NCBI GenBank assembly: GCA_022447205.1
Contig: JAKVBQ010000009.1
Coordinates: 44,986-94,387 of the forward strand
Direction of reading: 5' to 3'
Origin: Phycisphaerales bacterium
GTDB taxonomy: Bacteria > Planctomycetota > Phycisphaerae > Phycisphaerales > SM1A02
Length of the DNA: 49,402 nt
Position 1 is the first letter of the stretch. Every line of letters begins with the position of its first letter. The position numbers and the translations under genes were made by a program. The notes beneath the pieces were generated by a model, which worked only from the letters and a program-made list of their open reading frames with translations, was not told where the DNA came from and did no database searches. Positions 38,285-42,549 of this stretch are shown one piece after another.

Positions 38285-39031
38285 TCAGTCGTCGAGCGGT
38301 CCACCGTTCGCAGTCGTCACGTGTTCCGACTCCAGCAGCTTGCCGAGAATCGTCGGCCATTCGTCCGATGAGACCCTCGTCAGTTCCACGACCAGGGACG
38401 TGGTCGAGAGGGTTTCGTCGATCGTGCAGGAACGGATCTTGTGGCGGATGCCGAGCTCGTCAAGCGGCACCTGCCAGGCGCTCATCGGCGCGTGCGTCGA
38501 ATTCAGCGAGATCTTGAGGCGTCCTCGACCGTTCTGACTGAACCGGCTGGGGCCTCTGCCCGGACGCGCGTTGTTCGTGATCTGCGTCTGGAAAAGCAGG
38601 ATGAGGACCGTGGCCCCGATCACCATGGTGCCCACGCTCGCGACCAGGAAGTTCTGGTTTCCGGTTGCGAGGCCGATGACGACCGAGAAGATCACGAACG
38701 CCGCATCCATCGGTTCCTTGATCGGGGTGCGGAACCGGACGATCGCCAGGGTGCCGAAGAGTGTGAATGCCGCGGCGAGGTTCGTCCCCACGGCCATCGT
38801 CGCCATGGCGATGAGGGGTGAGATGAGTACCAGTGTTCGCCAGAGCCTGGTGGTCGGCTTGTCGCGATGCGCCAGGAGGTGGAGCATTGCCACGACGAGA
38901 CCGAACACGGTCGCGAGGACCAGCGTGTAGGTGGTTCCCGCGAAGGTGATCTGTTCGACCACCCCTGTCTCGTCGGTCATGGTGTTCATGATCCCGTTGA
39001 ACTCGTCCATGGTCTGGTGGGGCTCCGTCAT
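38285..39031 (-). CDS. DUF4956 membrane protein
   Basis: This 248-residue protein has four membrane spans at about 25-160 and a cytoplasmic C-terminal domain. The conserved block Thr-Leu-Ala-Ile-Val-Arg-Phe-Arg-Thr-Pro-Ile-Lys-Glu-Pro is the DUF4956 hallmark. In other bacteria the family commonly neighbours CotH kinases and VTC-type polyphosphate polymerase domains; here CotH is upstream on the same strand and no VTC protein is present. The start at 39031 was chosen because it overlaps, as ATGA, the end of a 16-codon reading frame that begins just after a -10-like TACACT. Other candidate starts are a GTG at 39052 and an ATG at 39010. Confidence 0.85.
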   Translation of the reverse strand: MTEPHQTMDEFNGIMNTMTDETGVVEQITFAGTTYTLVLATVFGLVVAMLHLLAHRDKPTTRLWRTLVLISPLIAMATMAVGTNLAAAFTLFGTLAIVRFRTPIKEPMDAAFVIFSVVIGLATGNQNFLVASVGTMVIGATVLILLFQTQITNNARPGRGPSRFSQNGRGRLKISLNSTHAPMSAWQVPLDELGIRHKIRSCTIDETLSTTSLVVELTRVSSDEWPTILGKLLESEHVTTANGGPLDD

Positions 39032-39078
39032 CGATCCCGGGAGGAATCGCACTGTTCTGCCTTGTTTCGGCGGGTCAT
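39028..39078 (-). CDS. Possible 16-codon leader reading frame coupled to the DUF4956 gene
   Basis: ATG at 39078 opens a 16-residue frame (Met-Thr-Arg-Arg-Asn-Lys-Ala-Glu...) whose TGA overlaps the DUF4956 ATG. TACACT (39090-39095, minus strand) lies 11 bases before its ATG, so an mRNA starting there would begin almost at this codon. Translation of it would control initiation at DUF4956. It may equally be a chance frame. Confidence 0.3.
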   Translation of the reverse strand: MTRRNKAEQCDSSRDR

Positions 39079-39116
39079 GCGTGCGGTGGAGTGTAGACGA
39101 TCCTCACCCACCAGGG

Positions 39117-40976
39117 TCAGCGGTTTGATTCCTTCGGCGGGTCGCCCTTCAGCGTCTCGTGTTCGAGGAGGAACTTCCGGCGCGCGGCCGAGTTCGCCTT
39201 GATGGAGTTCTGTGGGCCGTAGAGGCTTGATTCGAAACGTTCCCGTCCTTCGAGGAACGGGTCCTTCTCGACATCCTCGATGATGAGGTCCCGCCACAGG
39301 TCGATTCGCCTGCCGAGTTTCGCCCAGTCCAGTTCCTCCATGGCCAGGGCCTTCACCCTGTCGAGATAGAGTGCCCGCCATTCCTCGACGGCGAGGATGC
39401 GAACAATGACCGGTCGGATGTCGATGTCGTTCTCGTAGGCGAGTGGCGACAGGGTTGCGAGGTTCCCGCCACGGCCACCACCTCGACGGCCGCCCCTGCC
39501 TCGCCTGCGATCCTGGTTCTCCTGGCCTTGCGGGGGAGCAGGTCGGGTCTCGTCGCCCCGTCGGTCCTGCCCGCGACGCGGTCGATCGAGTCCGGGCCTG
39601 TTGCGTGTGTCCCCGGTGTCCCGTTCCTGGTTGGGCGGGGGGCCGCCGGGACCTCCGAAGCCGCTGGGACCATCGGGTCCGCCGGGACCACCGAAGCCGC
39701 CGGGACCACCGGGTCCGCCGGGTCCACCGGGTCCGCCGGGTCCACCGGGTCCGCCGGGACCACCGGGTCCGCCGGGACCACCGGGTCCGCCTGGACCACC
39801 GGGTCCGCCTGGACCACCCGGGCCACCGGGTCCGCCTGGACCACGGCTTCCCCCGAACGTCTCGTTGTTGTCGTAGTGGACGAGGTGGAAGATGTCCTCG
39901 GGATCCTTGTAGATGTAGTAGTCACTGCCTCGGCTGTAGTAGCCGTCCGAGTCCATGAAGACGTTGTCCAGGGCGAGGAACCAGATGACCTCATCGATGG
40001 CGAGATGACGCGGGAGCACGTCCTTCAGTTCCTCGTCCGGTGTCTCGCGCAGGATCCGGCAGATCTCGACCAGGTCCTCCCAGTCCTTCTCGTCGGCGGA
40101 ACCGGTCTTCAGTTCGTACCCGTTCTTGTACGCCTCGATGTCCTCCCCGAGGTAGCGAAGTGCGCCGCCACCGGAAAAGTCCGGGGGCACCTTCCACCGT
40201 ACGCCCTTGCTGCTGTCCCAGTGTTCCTTGGTGAAGTCCTTGTTGATCTGCTGGACATTGCCGTAGACCCCGAGGTACGTGCCGTTCACAACGACCTTGA
40301 CGAAGTTCGCCTTGGGCGCAGGGAGATACTCGCCGGCGATGTTCGAGAAGAGGACCTCCCGCATGACGGTCGGGTCGCCGTTTGCATTCAGGAGGTTGAG
40401 TGTTCGGTACCCCTTGAGGCGAAGGTCGTCGTCATAGGCATCGATCGAGATGCCGAAGGACTTCTTCTCGGGGTGGTCGAATGATGTGTTGCCGCGGTAG
40501 GAGATGCCGACTTCCCCGATGGACCTGCCGTCCATGGAGAGCGTTCCAGGAACTTCCGCATCGGTGCCGTGGAAGACCGTCAGCTCGTCATGCCAGTCGT
40601 CCTCAGGGAACTCGATGAACAACGTGTGCAGGGCATCGATGTCGTAGAGACCGCTGTCTTCAAAGCGTCTGACATCATCGTCGTTGAGGCTGATCCGATC
40701 CGGGGCGTCCTGGGGCCGGACACGGTTTCCGGCATCTTCGTCCGCCCCGGGTCGCTTGCGTCTCGTGCGTCGTTCCATCCCGGAGAGGGCTTCGCGTGCA
40801 CGCTCGCGCTCGTCCCGGTCGAGCCTGTCGTCTCCATCGACATCGAACTCTTCATGAATCGGGATGTCCTGGAATCTCGGTCCGTTGGGTTGGCCCTGTC
40901 CGAAGGCACTCGAACCGATGGCAATGCAGGCAAGGAGACTCAATGTCCCGTGAACATGACATGGTGCAGGCTTCAT
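39117..40976 (-). CDS. CotH-family protein kinase with EF-hand and Gly-Gly-Pro repeat insert, exported
   Basis: This 619-residue protein has a signal peptide at 1-27 and a canonical EF-hand loop at 45-56 (Asp-Val-Asp-Gly-Asp-Asp-Arg-Leu-Asp-Arg-Asp-Glu). A Lys/Arg-rich stretch follows, then a CotH domain from about 95: Gly-Ile-Ser-Tyr-Arg-Gly-Asn-Thr-Ser, Lys-Lys-Ser-Phe and Leu-Asn-Leu-Leu-Asn-Ala-Asn-Gly-Asp-Pro-Thr. The metal-binding/catalytic segments are Asp-Asn-Val-Phe-Met-Asp-Ser-Asp-Gly-Tyr-Tyr and His-Tyr-Asp-Asn-Asn-Glu-Thr-Phe-Gly. Just after these, a collagen-like Gly-Gly-Pro tract (about 376-445) and an Arg/Gly/Gln-rich region (about 445-500) separate the last 110 residues. Known CotH proteins phosphorylate secreted proteins. 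AGGAAGAG precedes the ATG. Confidence 0.9.
   Translation of the reverse strand: MKPAPCHVHGTLSLLACIAIGSSAFGQGQPNGPRFQDIPIHEEFDVDGDDRLDRDERERAREALSGMERRTRRKRPGADEDAGNRVRPQDAPDRISLNDDDVRRFEDSGLYDIDALHTLFIEFPEDDWHDELTVFHGTDAEVPGTLSMDGRSIGEVGISYRGNTSFDHPEKKSFGISIDAYDDDLRLKGYRTLNLLNANGDPTVMREVLFSNIAGEYLPAPKANFVKVVVNGTYLGVYGNVQQINKDFTKEHWDSSKGVRWKVPPDFSGGGALRYLGEDIEAYKNGYELKTGSADEKDWEDLVEICRILRETPDEELKDVLPRHLAIDEVIWFLALDNVFMDSDGYYSRGSDYYIYKDPEDIFHLVHYDNNETFGGSRGPGGPGGPGGPGGPGGPGGPGGPGGPGGPGGPGGPGGPGGPGGPGGPGGFGGPGGPDGPSGFGGPGGPPPNQERDTGDTRNRPGLDRPRRGQDRRGDETRPAPPQGQENQDRRRGRGGRRGGGRGGNLATLSPLAYENDIDIRPVIVRILAVEEWRALYLDRVKALAMEELDWAKLGRRIDLWRDLIIEDVEKDPFLEGRERFESSLYGPQNSIKANSAARRKFLLEHETLKGDPPKESNR
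39641..39850. repeat. Nine-base tandem repeat coding Gly-Gly-Pro
   Basis: Repeats of CCGGGTCCG/CCACCGGGT-type 9-mers inside the CotH gene encode about twenty Gly-Gly-Pro units on the minus strand. Such a tract can expand or contract by slippage and is also a likely assembly trouble spot. Confidence 0.9.
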
Positions 40977-41153: not shown

Positions 41154-41993
41154 ATGATCAGGCTCGCTGCAATCGCATTCGTGTTTCTTCTGCTGCCGGG
41201 GATCCTCCGGGCGCAGGAAGACCATCAGGAAACCGTACCGGAAGCGACTGCCACGACAGCCGGCGCTCCTGAAGAGGGCGCTGTGGAAGATCGATGGGTG
41301 CCGCTCTTCAATGGTCGTGATCTTGCCGGCTGGACCCCCAAGATCGTGGGGCATGCTCTCGGTGAGGATCCCTACCGCACCGTTCGTGTCGAGGATGGGA
41401 TGATTCGCATCGGGTACGAAGGGTATGAGCCGCCCTTCAACGGTCGATTCTGCCACCTCTTTCACGACAAGTCGTTTTCGCGATACCGCCTTCGCGTCGA
41501 GTACCGCTTTCATGGTGACCAGGTGGAGGGCGGTCCGGGTTGGGCATGGCGCAACAGTGGGGCGATGCTGCATTGCCAGGACCCGAAGACCATGGGATTG
41601 AAACAGTCCTTTCCGGTCTCGGTGGAAGGCCAGTTCCTCGGTGGCGATGGGAGTGCGAAGCGCAGCACCGGAAATCTGTGCACGCCGGGAACGAACGTCG
41701 TGATGAAGGGGGAGCTCGACCGACGCCACTGCATCAATTCCTCTTCCGAGACCTGTCATGGAGACGACTGGGTCGTGGCGGAGTTCGTTGTCGATGGCGG
41801 CGGGACCGTGAAGCACTTCATCAACGGCAAGCTCGTTCTTGAGTACGAACAGCCTCAGCTCGACCCGAATGATGGTGATGCTGGGAAGCTCATTGATGGT
41901 GACGACCTGGTCCTGACCTCCGGCTGGATCGCCCTCCAGGGAGAGAGCCATCCCATTGACTTCCGCAAGGTGGAGATCCTCGAGCTTGAATGA
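41154..41993 (+). CDS. Exported DUF1080 (3-keto-disaccharide hydrolase-like) protein
   Basis: This 279-residue protein has a signal peptide at 1-20 and an acidic Thr/Ala/Glu linker. A DUF1080 concanavalin-like domain follows, opening with Val-Pro-Leu-Phe-Asn-Gly-Arg-Asp-Leu-Ala-Gly-Trp and ending with Gly-Trp-Ile-Ala-Leu-Gln-Gly-Glu-Ser-His-Pro-Ile-Asp-Phe-Arg-Lys-Val. The family is abundant in planctomycetes, and some members hydrolyse 3-keto-glycosides. GGAGG lies 7 bases before the ATG. A perfect 12-base palindrome (GTATCCGGATAC, 41122-41133) stands in the promoter region. The 177-base gap to the divergent CotH gene holds nothing else recognisable. Confidence 0.9.
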   Translation: MIRLAAIAFVFLLLPGILRAQEDHQETVPEATATTAGAPEEGAVEDRWVPLFNGRDLAGWTPKIVGHALGEDPYRTVRVEDGMIRIGYEGYEPPFNGRFCHLFHDKSFSRYRLRVEYRFHGDQVEGGPGWAWRNSGAMLHCQDPKTMGLKQSFPVSVEGQFLGGDGSAKRSTGNLCTPGTNVVMKGELDRRHCINSSSETCHGDDWVVAEFVVDGGGTVKHFINGKLVLEYEQPQLDPNDGDAGKLIDGDDLVLTSGWIALQGESHPIDFRKVEILELE

Positions 41994-42023: not shown

Positions 42024-42482
42024 TCAAAGCCAGGGCGCTTCGTTCTCGTCCTCTTCGTCTTCCTCTTCGTCTTCCTCTTCCTCTTGCCCTCGTCTCAAAC
42101 CCCGTCGTTTTCTCTTCTTCTCGACGTACTCTCCGAAGTCGGGGTCCTGAGCCTGGCTTCGATAGATCCTGATTCTTGAGAGGAACCATGACCAGAGCAC
42201 GAGTGCGACCAGGCTGATCCCCGCGTAGACATACCACATGTTGGGATCGTTCATCTGGTTCTTCAGCACCAGTGAGCCACTGGCGACGAACATCAGCGCG
42301 GCAATGCCGAAGCCACCTGCGAAACCGATCACGAGTGCCCAGGTGATGCCCGGTGTCTTCAGCACACGTTCGAGGTTCGAGAGGGTGTCGTCCTCCTCCG
42401 GGAGTCCGGGTGCCACCGGTTCCTGGTTCGGCGTGTTCCTGCGCCATGGGGGGATCGAATTGGGAGCTTCGTCTTTGCTCAT
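42024..42482 (-). CDS. Small membrane protein with acidic tail, hypothetical
   Basis: This 152-residue protein has a Pro-rich N-terminal cytoplasmic segment and two membrane spans (about 46-68 and 82-103). A basic stretch follows (Lys-Lys-Arg-Lys-Arg-Arg near 122), then a tail with a run of Glu and Asp residues. It lies 67 bases behind the GspE-type ATPase on the same strand. No family is recognised. The start at 42482 begins Met-Ser-Lys-Asp-Glu; an ATG at 42506 is also possible. Confidence 0.7.
   Translation of the reverse strand: MSKDEAPNSIPPWRRNTPNQEPVAPGLPEEDDTLSNLERVLKTPGITWALVIGFAGGFGIAALMFVASGSLVLKNQMNDPNMWYVYAGISLVALVLWSWFLSRIRIYRSQAQDPDFGEYVEKKRKRRGLRRGQEEEEDEEEDEEDENEAPWL
42041..42087. 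repeat. TCTTCC/TCGTCT-type simple repeat coding an acidic tail
   Basis: Pyrimidine-rich trinucleotide repeats on the plus strand encode Glu/Asp runs near the C-terminus of the small membrane protein on the minus strand. Confidence 0.8.
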
Positions 42483-42549
42483 CTTGTGCATCCGATCCAA
42501 TGCCACTTTCGAGCGTGGAGGCGGCTGTTCCGGGTGAGGAGGTTGTGGG

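Follow-up and report, generated by a model that had tools for sequence, protein, structure and literature searches.

The stretch of DNA considered here (hereafter the window: 49,402 nucleotides of a Phycisphaerales bacterium, assembly GCA_022447205.1, contig JAKVBQ010000009.1, positions 44,986 to 94,387) carries a gene for a CotH-family kinase, followed on the same strand by a gene for a DUF4956 membrane protein. The preliminary description of this DNA had placed the two genes next to each other, and according to the list of open reading frames they are indeed adjacent on one strand, with a gap of 64 bases. The features of both genes, in positions of the window, are the following:

39117..40976, minus strand: CotH-family kinase of 619 residues, EF-hand/GP-loop (Gly/Pro-rich loop) subfamily (Pfam CotH, E 1.3e-39; match to the structure 5JD9, E 6.5e-16, alignment A4)
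40899..40976, minus strand: putative Sec signal peptide, residues 1-26 (a visual judgement of the translation, made with no predictor: hydrophobic stretch ending AFG-Q)
40809..40844, minus strand: EF-hand-like loop DVDGDDRLDRDE, residues 45-56 (pattern match)
39855..40631, minus strand: kinase core up to the D-x-N-E-T-F motif, residues 116-374, including D344 and D369 (alignments A3 and A4)
39447..39854, minus strand: GP-rich loop insert, residues 375-510 (gap between the 5JD9-aligned segments, of which the first ends at 257 and the second begins at 272; A4)
39636..39851, minus strand: 24 perfect Gly-X-Y triplets, mostly Gly-Gly-Pro, residues 376-447 (repeat scan, triplet-run count)
39465..39515, minus strand: Arg/Gly stretch, residues 488-504 (translation)
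39150..39446, minus strand: helical C-terminal portion, kinase residues 511-609 (covered by the second of the 5JD9-aligned segments, 272-354)
38285..39052, minus strand: DUF4956 protein of 255 residues, with a membrane domain and an ACT-like C-terminal domain (Pfam, E 4.3e-9; hydropathy; low-confidence model and Foldseek)
38729..38737, minus strand: R106-F107-R108 motif of DUF4956 (both arginines identical in 105 of 105 sequences)
38294..38527, minus strand: ACT-like domain of DUF4956, residues 176-253, strand-helix-strand-strand-helix-strand (model and Foldseek)

The source genome (3.25 Mb, 86 contigs, the locus being on contig 86) holds three CotH genes and one DUF4956 gene; the other two CotH genes show gaps of 23-24 residues at the site of the insert. 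VTC, the polyphosphate polymerase-like protein usually encoded with such a pair, is absent from the cluster and gave zero matches across the whole genome, which is 95.15% complete, so that a VTC gene in an unassembled stretch is possible.

The kinase matches Pfam CotH (PF08757) with 137 bits (cut-off 23.8). In a structure search with a profile of ten family members (threshold E 0.001), the CotH protein of Bacillus cereus, 5JD9, was the single solved relative at E <= 0.001, aligned in two collinear segments, i.e., chain residues 22-257 (44.8 bits) and 272-354 (19.8 bits, E 0.0026 alone). The kinase core is intact in this alignment and both catalytic-type aspartates are retained, in agreement with the complete active-site segments seen earlier; counted along the alignment, D344 and D369 are D224 and D247 of 5JD9, and they are invariant in 10 of 10 rows of alignment A4. 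By a constant offset of four, they would equal D228 and D251 of Bacillus subtilis CotH, of which the mutants D228Q and D251A are reported to be inactive (PMC7821199).

Directly after the metal-binding Asp motif lies the insert of 136 residues, rich in glycine, proline and arginine, whose end was set at residue 510 by alignment A4 (a tail profile had placed it at 520). Since the aligned segments of 5JD9 end at 257 and start again at 272, the insert replaces approx. 14 residues right after the second catalytic-type Asp. The Gly-Gly-Pro tract of about 70 residues and the Arg/Gly region, which had been described as following the active-site segment, were both found there (376-447 and 488-504). Compared with Bacillus CotH (5JD9/5JDA), the planctomycete kinase is alike in its core, in both catalytic-type aspartates and in its aligning N- and C-terminal parts, but it has 136 residues in place of approx. 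14, it has an added N-terminal EF-hand loop, and it neighbours DUF4956 and not the spore-coat genes that are the neighbours of Bacillus CotH.

Relatives were taken from a sample of the order (151 genomes) and a sample of the phylum (294 genomes). The core alignment A3, run against 392 phylum genomes, matched 68 at E <= 1e-25, other CotH kinds included. CotH frames were scored in 101 sources (40 + 60 stretches, which were picked from search hits and are thus non-random, and the window), and the subfamily consists of the 55 frames with at least 285 bits plus L174, which is cut by a contig end (56 in total). A careful tree of 64 rows, rooted at the midpoint, has a branch (support 100/99) that sets off 53 of the 55 frames; L295 and L296, which have the EF loop and a short, Gly-poor gap, lie beyond this branch, so score and tree agree only partly. 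The window kinase is in the 53-row group and has both the EF loop and a Gly-rich loop after D-x-N-E-x-F. It belongs to a Planctomycetota EF-hand/GP-loop subfamily of CotH, and its features are not peculiar to this locus. The non-subfamily CotH set used for comparison includes non-independent tandem genes of single loci, L304 (G187), L305 (G160) and L313 (G331), at which runs of four to five CotH frames stand beside VTC and DUF4956. At L172 (G082), a CotH frame of more than 2000 residues, cut by the stretch end, adjoins DUF4956.

The sequence DVDGDDRLDRDE matches the PROSITE EF-hand pattern as a single, unpaired loop of 12 residues with ligands at positions 1, 3, 5, 9 and 12; of 2000 shuffles of the N-terminal region, 0.75% match it. 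Pfam EF-hand models found nothing in the kinase N-terminus up to E 1. One such loop precedes the core in all 18 insert-bearing proteins tested, the window's included; of the 54 subfamily members whose core is preceded by more than 60 residues, 52 have it, versus 2 of 36 other CotH proteins. The EF-hand loop that had been noticed near the N-terminus is hence upheld by the pattern and by its conservation in the subfamily, with Pfam silent.

The loop after the Asp motif has a median length of 92.5 residues in the subfamily (22-275, 52 measured) and at least 39 residues in 45 of these 52, versus a median gap of 25 residues (16-39, 34 measured) in other CotH proteins, where one of 34 attains at least 39. 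In the order sample, it is kept at the same site in relatives with the same core, and no close relative lacking it, which would have counted against the earlier proposal, was found in that sample, where 17 loci bear the insert. An assembly artefact or a one-locus oddity is ruled out by its presence at the same site in the same-genus genome G069 and in others. Members of the subfamily paired with DUF4956 have a loop of at least 50 residues in 33 of 33 measurable cases (of 34), while DUF4956-paired CotH frames outside the subfamily have 16-30 residues (10 of 20 measurable). Serine, threonine and tyrosine are scarce in the insert (median 4.1% versus 15.6% in the core, n = 44), which disfavours an autophosphorylation tail. 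The net charge is +4 in the window protein and within +/-3 in 35 of 44 inserts, so that a strongly positive polyphosphate binder is unsupported.

The absence of VTC can be followed across genomes. VTC was found in 7 and DUF4956 in 30 of the 151 genomes of the order sample, and the 294 genomes of the phylum sample gave VTC in 77, DUF4956 in 81 and CotH in 88; by name lists, VTC and DUF4956 occur together in 74 of these genomes, VTC alone in 3 and DUF4956 alone in 7. The earlier statement that VTC is usual elsewhere and missing here is therefore correct, as 74 of 81 DUF4956 genomes have it. In the subfamily, a same-strand DUF4956 gene lies within 1.5 kb of the kinase in 34 of 56 genes (distances are between stop-to-stop frames, and hence lower bounds), 21 times without VTC and 13 times with it, and the proposed pairing of kinase and DUF4956 thus extends beyond the window. 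Among the 21 genomes whose pair lacks VTC, 15 gave zero VTC matches, several of the assemblies being incomplete; VTC is on another contig in G129 and G257, and G441, G465, G502 and G459 lay outside the VTC search. Where VTC is in the locus, it sits between CotH and DUF4956 in 12 of 13 cases (the exception is G234). At L176 (G084) and L177 (G122), VTC and DUF4956 are adjacent, and CotH was not found in the 14 kb stretch.

VTC-bearing loci have a loop of at least 54 residues in all 12 measurable cases (of 13), and the 21 VTC-less loci have the loop too. As the loop is present with and without VTC, it is no stand-in for VTC, and an insert replacing VTC is ruled out. The idea of a structural tether that goes with VTC loss did not hold for the same reason, and Gly-X-Y periodicity was seen in 14 of 44 inserts only. 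It had also been reasoned that a VTC gene beside this kinase in related genomes, with the insert an artefact, would undermine the finding; such a VTC gene is indeed present at 2 of the 17 loci (G033 and G105), but the insert there is real. In a kinase tree (36 rows, quick method), the VTC label changes 5 times, with at least 2 changes forced by starred branches, and in a DUF4956 tree (34 rows) it changes 4 times, with at least 1 forced. With no root inferred for these trees, a loss of VTC is presumed because the three-gene form occurs widely.

The DUF4956 protein of the window matches Pfam DUF4956 (PF16316) with 36.7 bits (cut-off 30.6, E 4.3e-9) and has several hydrophobic stretches by hydropathy. 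A two-sequence AlphaFold model has a mean predicted local distance difference test score (pLDDT) of 56.8, and approx. 63-81 in the C-terminal domain, for which Foldseek ranked NikR first and also returned ACT domains, with the C-terminal domain of MgtC (7qa5) at rank 16. None of the 105 unique DUF4956 sequences collected departs from Arg106 or Arg108, although this set is biased to Planctomycetota and to matches of a single profile, for which the window protein was the seed. There was no match of the window protein to Pfam MgtC (PF02308); this model matches 4 of 10 DUF4956 proteins scanned over at least 115 of its 121 positions, all below the cut-off (maximum 29.7 versus 31.4 bits). Local hhalign of DUF4956 with MgtC gave P 0.0015 (probability 17%), versus P 0.41 for a VTC control. 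By the low-confidence model, DUF4956 may share with MgtC a layout of several membrane helices with an ACT-like domain at the C-terminal end, and some DUF4956 relatives match almost the full Pfam MgtC model co-linearly and weakly, whereas Arg-x-Arg is characteristic of the DUF4956 set. Taken together, this is weakly suggestive of a relation between DUF4956 and MgtC. DUF4956-type frames of 248-485 residues with neither CotH nor VTC in the stretch were also seen (L183, L185, L186 and L188-L198), all from the window's family except L192, and some of them weakly match Pfam MgtC or Na/H exchanger models.

Published work describes a related module. Genes for CotH, a polyphosphate polymerase, DUF4956 and DUF4832 are contiguous with pel genes (PMC7112168). 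In Streptococcus intermedius, SIR_1592 has an MgtC membrane domain plus ACT (PMC12345266), and its position next to the CotH and polymerase genes, together with the gene lists of the two papers, leads us to infer that it is a DUF4956 protein; if so, an MgtC-like reading of DUF4956 is not new, being in print for SIR_1592. Deletion of SIR_1592 or of SIR_1594 (CotH) cuts aggregation by more than 50% in 10% artificial sputum medium, while mutants of SIR_1593 (polymerase) aggregated, with no decrease mentioned (PMC12345266). That SIR_1592 and SIR_1594 matter and SIR_1593 is silent in those conditions fits with natural VTC-less pairs and is no proof of them. The same source reports that the three-gene synteny was not found outside pel loci (PMC12345266). 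We found the three-gene order at the Planctomycetota loci of G033, G207 and G434, with no Pel families among the flanking genes scanned (8, 3 and 3, respectively; the flanks were partly scanned and some genes had no Pfam match at all). The window pair resembles the SIR_1594-1592 module of the pel cluster in that a secreted CotH (in the window, putatively so) and a membrane protein of presumed MgtC-plus-ACT type are encoded together, SIR_1592 being taken as DUF4956; it differs in lacking VTC, in that none of the 9 flanking genes scanned has a pel-type domain, and in the EF-hand and GP loop added to the kinase.

To interpret these results, we suggest, with a probability of about 0.5, that CotH and DUF4956 form the core of a two-gene envelope phosphorylation module in which VTC is optional. 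The kinase would work outside the cytoplasm and phosphorylate envelope or matrix proteins, and calcium may steady or anchor its N-terminus via the EF-hand-like loop. The GP loop directly follows the metal-binding Asp motif, at the position that the activation segment takes in protein kinases, and as a flexible loop it could cross or flank the mouth of the active site and limit the entry of substrates. DUF4956 might sense a cytoplasmic ligand through its ACT-like domain and control the kinase, or the phosphate supply of the kinase, through the membrane. VTC would be a third, optional part, whose absence leaves the pair intact. The supply or gating of a phosphate donor by DUF4956 is the least supported part of this mechanism.

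Several points weigh against such a two-gene core. Pairing is not universal: for 22 of the 56 subfamily genes, no DUF4956 was seen in the nearest 1.5 kb, in part owing to contig ends. At eight VTC-less loci (L163, L202, L260, L262 and L264-L267), the DUF4956 proteins are of a distinct type on a long branch of their own, and some pairs may therefore have arisen by a swap of partner instead of by loss of VTC. All four accessory mutants of S. intermedius still made Pel, and the amount of Pel was up without SIR_1592 and down without SIR_1594 (PMC12345266); these opposite shifts argue against a simple linear pathway. None of the five CotH-paired DUF4956 proteins scanned (window, L171, L263, L276 and L163) match Pfam MgtC, the four that do match are not adjacent to a CotH, and hhalign was weaker in global mode (P 0.01, probability 1.9%). 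The structure model of the CotH protein, with a mean pLDDT of 33.5, was too poor for use or for a fold search, and export, calcium binding, phosphorylation of envelope or matrix and control by DUF4956 are put forward here from sequence features. The odds given above rest on the gene pair and not on MgtC.

The loop allows other explanations. It could be neutral low-complexity padding at a permissive surface loop, with no special calcium or phosphate link of the pair, and both the wide variation of its length and sequence (22-275 residues in the 52 measured) and the near-neutral charge of most inserts would suit this; however, it is long in every measurable DUF4956-paired member and short in the ten measurable pairs outside the subfamily, and its low content of Ser/Thr/Tyr relative to the core also speaks against padding. 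We regard this explanation as rather doubtful. Alternatively, in line with the structural tether proposed earlier, the insert could form a collagen-like triple helix, through which the kinase would trimerise or be tied to the matrix. This is suggested by the perfect run of 24 triplets (72 residues), which none of 500 shuffles equals and which is the longest among 44 inserts (the next longest have 12 and 11); 14 of the 44 inserts, among them that of the window, are more periodic than shuffles (p < 0.05, uncorrected). The remaining 30 of 44 inserts show no periodicity, which is thus not conserved family-wide, and the repeat is at the same time a DNA tandem repeat (39639-39830), a minisatellite with periods of 18, 36 and 54 bases. 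Glycine at X or Y weakens triple helices, and stabilising hydroxyproline is not expected in bacteria. We consider the triple helix quite improbable; judging from the translated sequences, the insert is a Gly/Pro-rich, presumably flexible loop, and its collagen-like repeat is a local minisatellite expansion in the window's lineage.

Two further explanations concern the phosphate. The module could still depend on polyphosphate, with PPK1 supplying it where VTC is missing, and of the 37 genomes checked, 35 have PPK1, the source genome among them. PPK1 does not, however, track the loss of VTC, being found in 20 of 21 genomes with a VTC-less pair and in 12 of 13 with VTC in the locus (PPK2 was outside the search; the genomes without PPK1 are G257, with a VTC-less pair, and G207, with VTC in the locus), which makes this an improbable explanation. 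A bolder extension of the two-gene core would make DUF4956 the missing supply line of the exported kinase: its Arg-x-Arg, in an MgtC-like protein, would pass or gate phosphate, nucleotide or polyphosphate across the inner membrane, the cytoplasmic ACT-like domain would meter the passage, the GP-rich loop would be an oversized activation segment, and VTC would only add polyphosphate in some lineages. We think this proposal quite unlikely.

Regarding the neighbourhood, a gene similar to 3-keto-disaccharide hydrolases by Pfam (41154-41993, on the other strand) lies upstream of CotH and divergent from it, and a gene of similar sequence is divergent upstream of CotH in the same-genus locus L006 (3066-3869). 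No Pel family was matched among 9 flanking window genes scanned with Pfam. At 42024-42506, a small protein with a Glu/Asp-rich tail (DNA repeats at 42038-42085) and no Pfam match adjoins a type II/IV secretion ATPase gene. When the flanking frames of 34 loci were clustered, antisense-looking frames dominated the result; a sulfatase-like frame came up in 5 loci (the window included), an ABC-transporter-like frame in 6, and one further cluster in 6.

No paper on a CotH kinase of Planctomycetes, or naming DUF4956 together with the VTC domain, turned up in the literature searched, most subscription papers being beyond reach. As far as these searches go, the subfamily, the site of the loop, the VTC-less pairs and the two invariant arginines of DUF4956 are new, and they may be described elsewhere. 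The locus is a real, conserved and modestly interesting variant of a known module. The source of ATP is listed among the unanswered questions for B. subtilis CotH (PMC7821199), and it belongs to the open question of how exported bacterial kinases obtain ATP; if DUF4956 were the supply line, the origin of the phosphate donor of an extracytoplasmic CotH would be explained. In the natural VTC-less pair, kinase and membrane partner occur apart from polyphosphate synthesis; the pair also points to two arginines and one loop, and the phenotypes seen in S. intermedius may reflect a widespread two-protein core.

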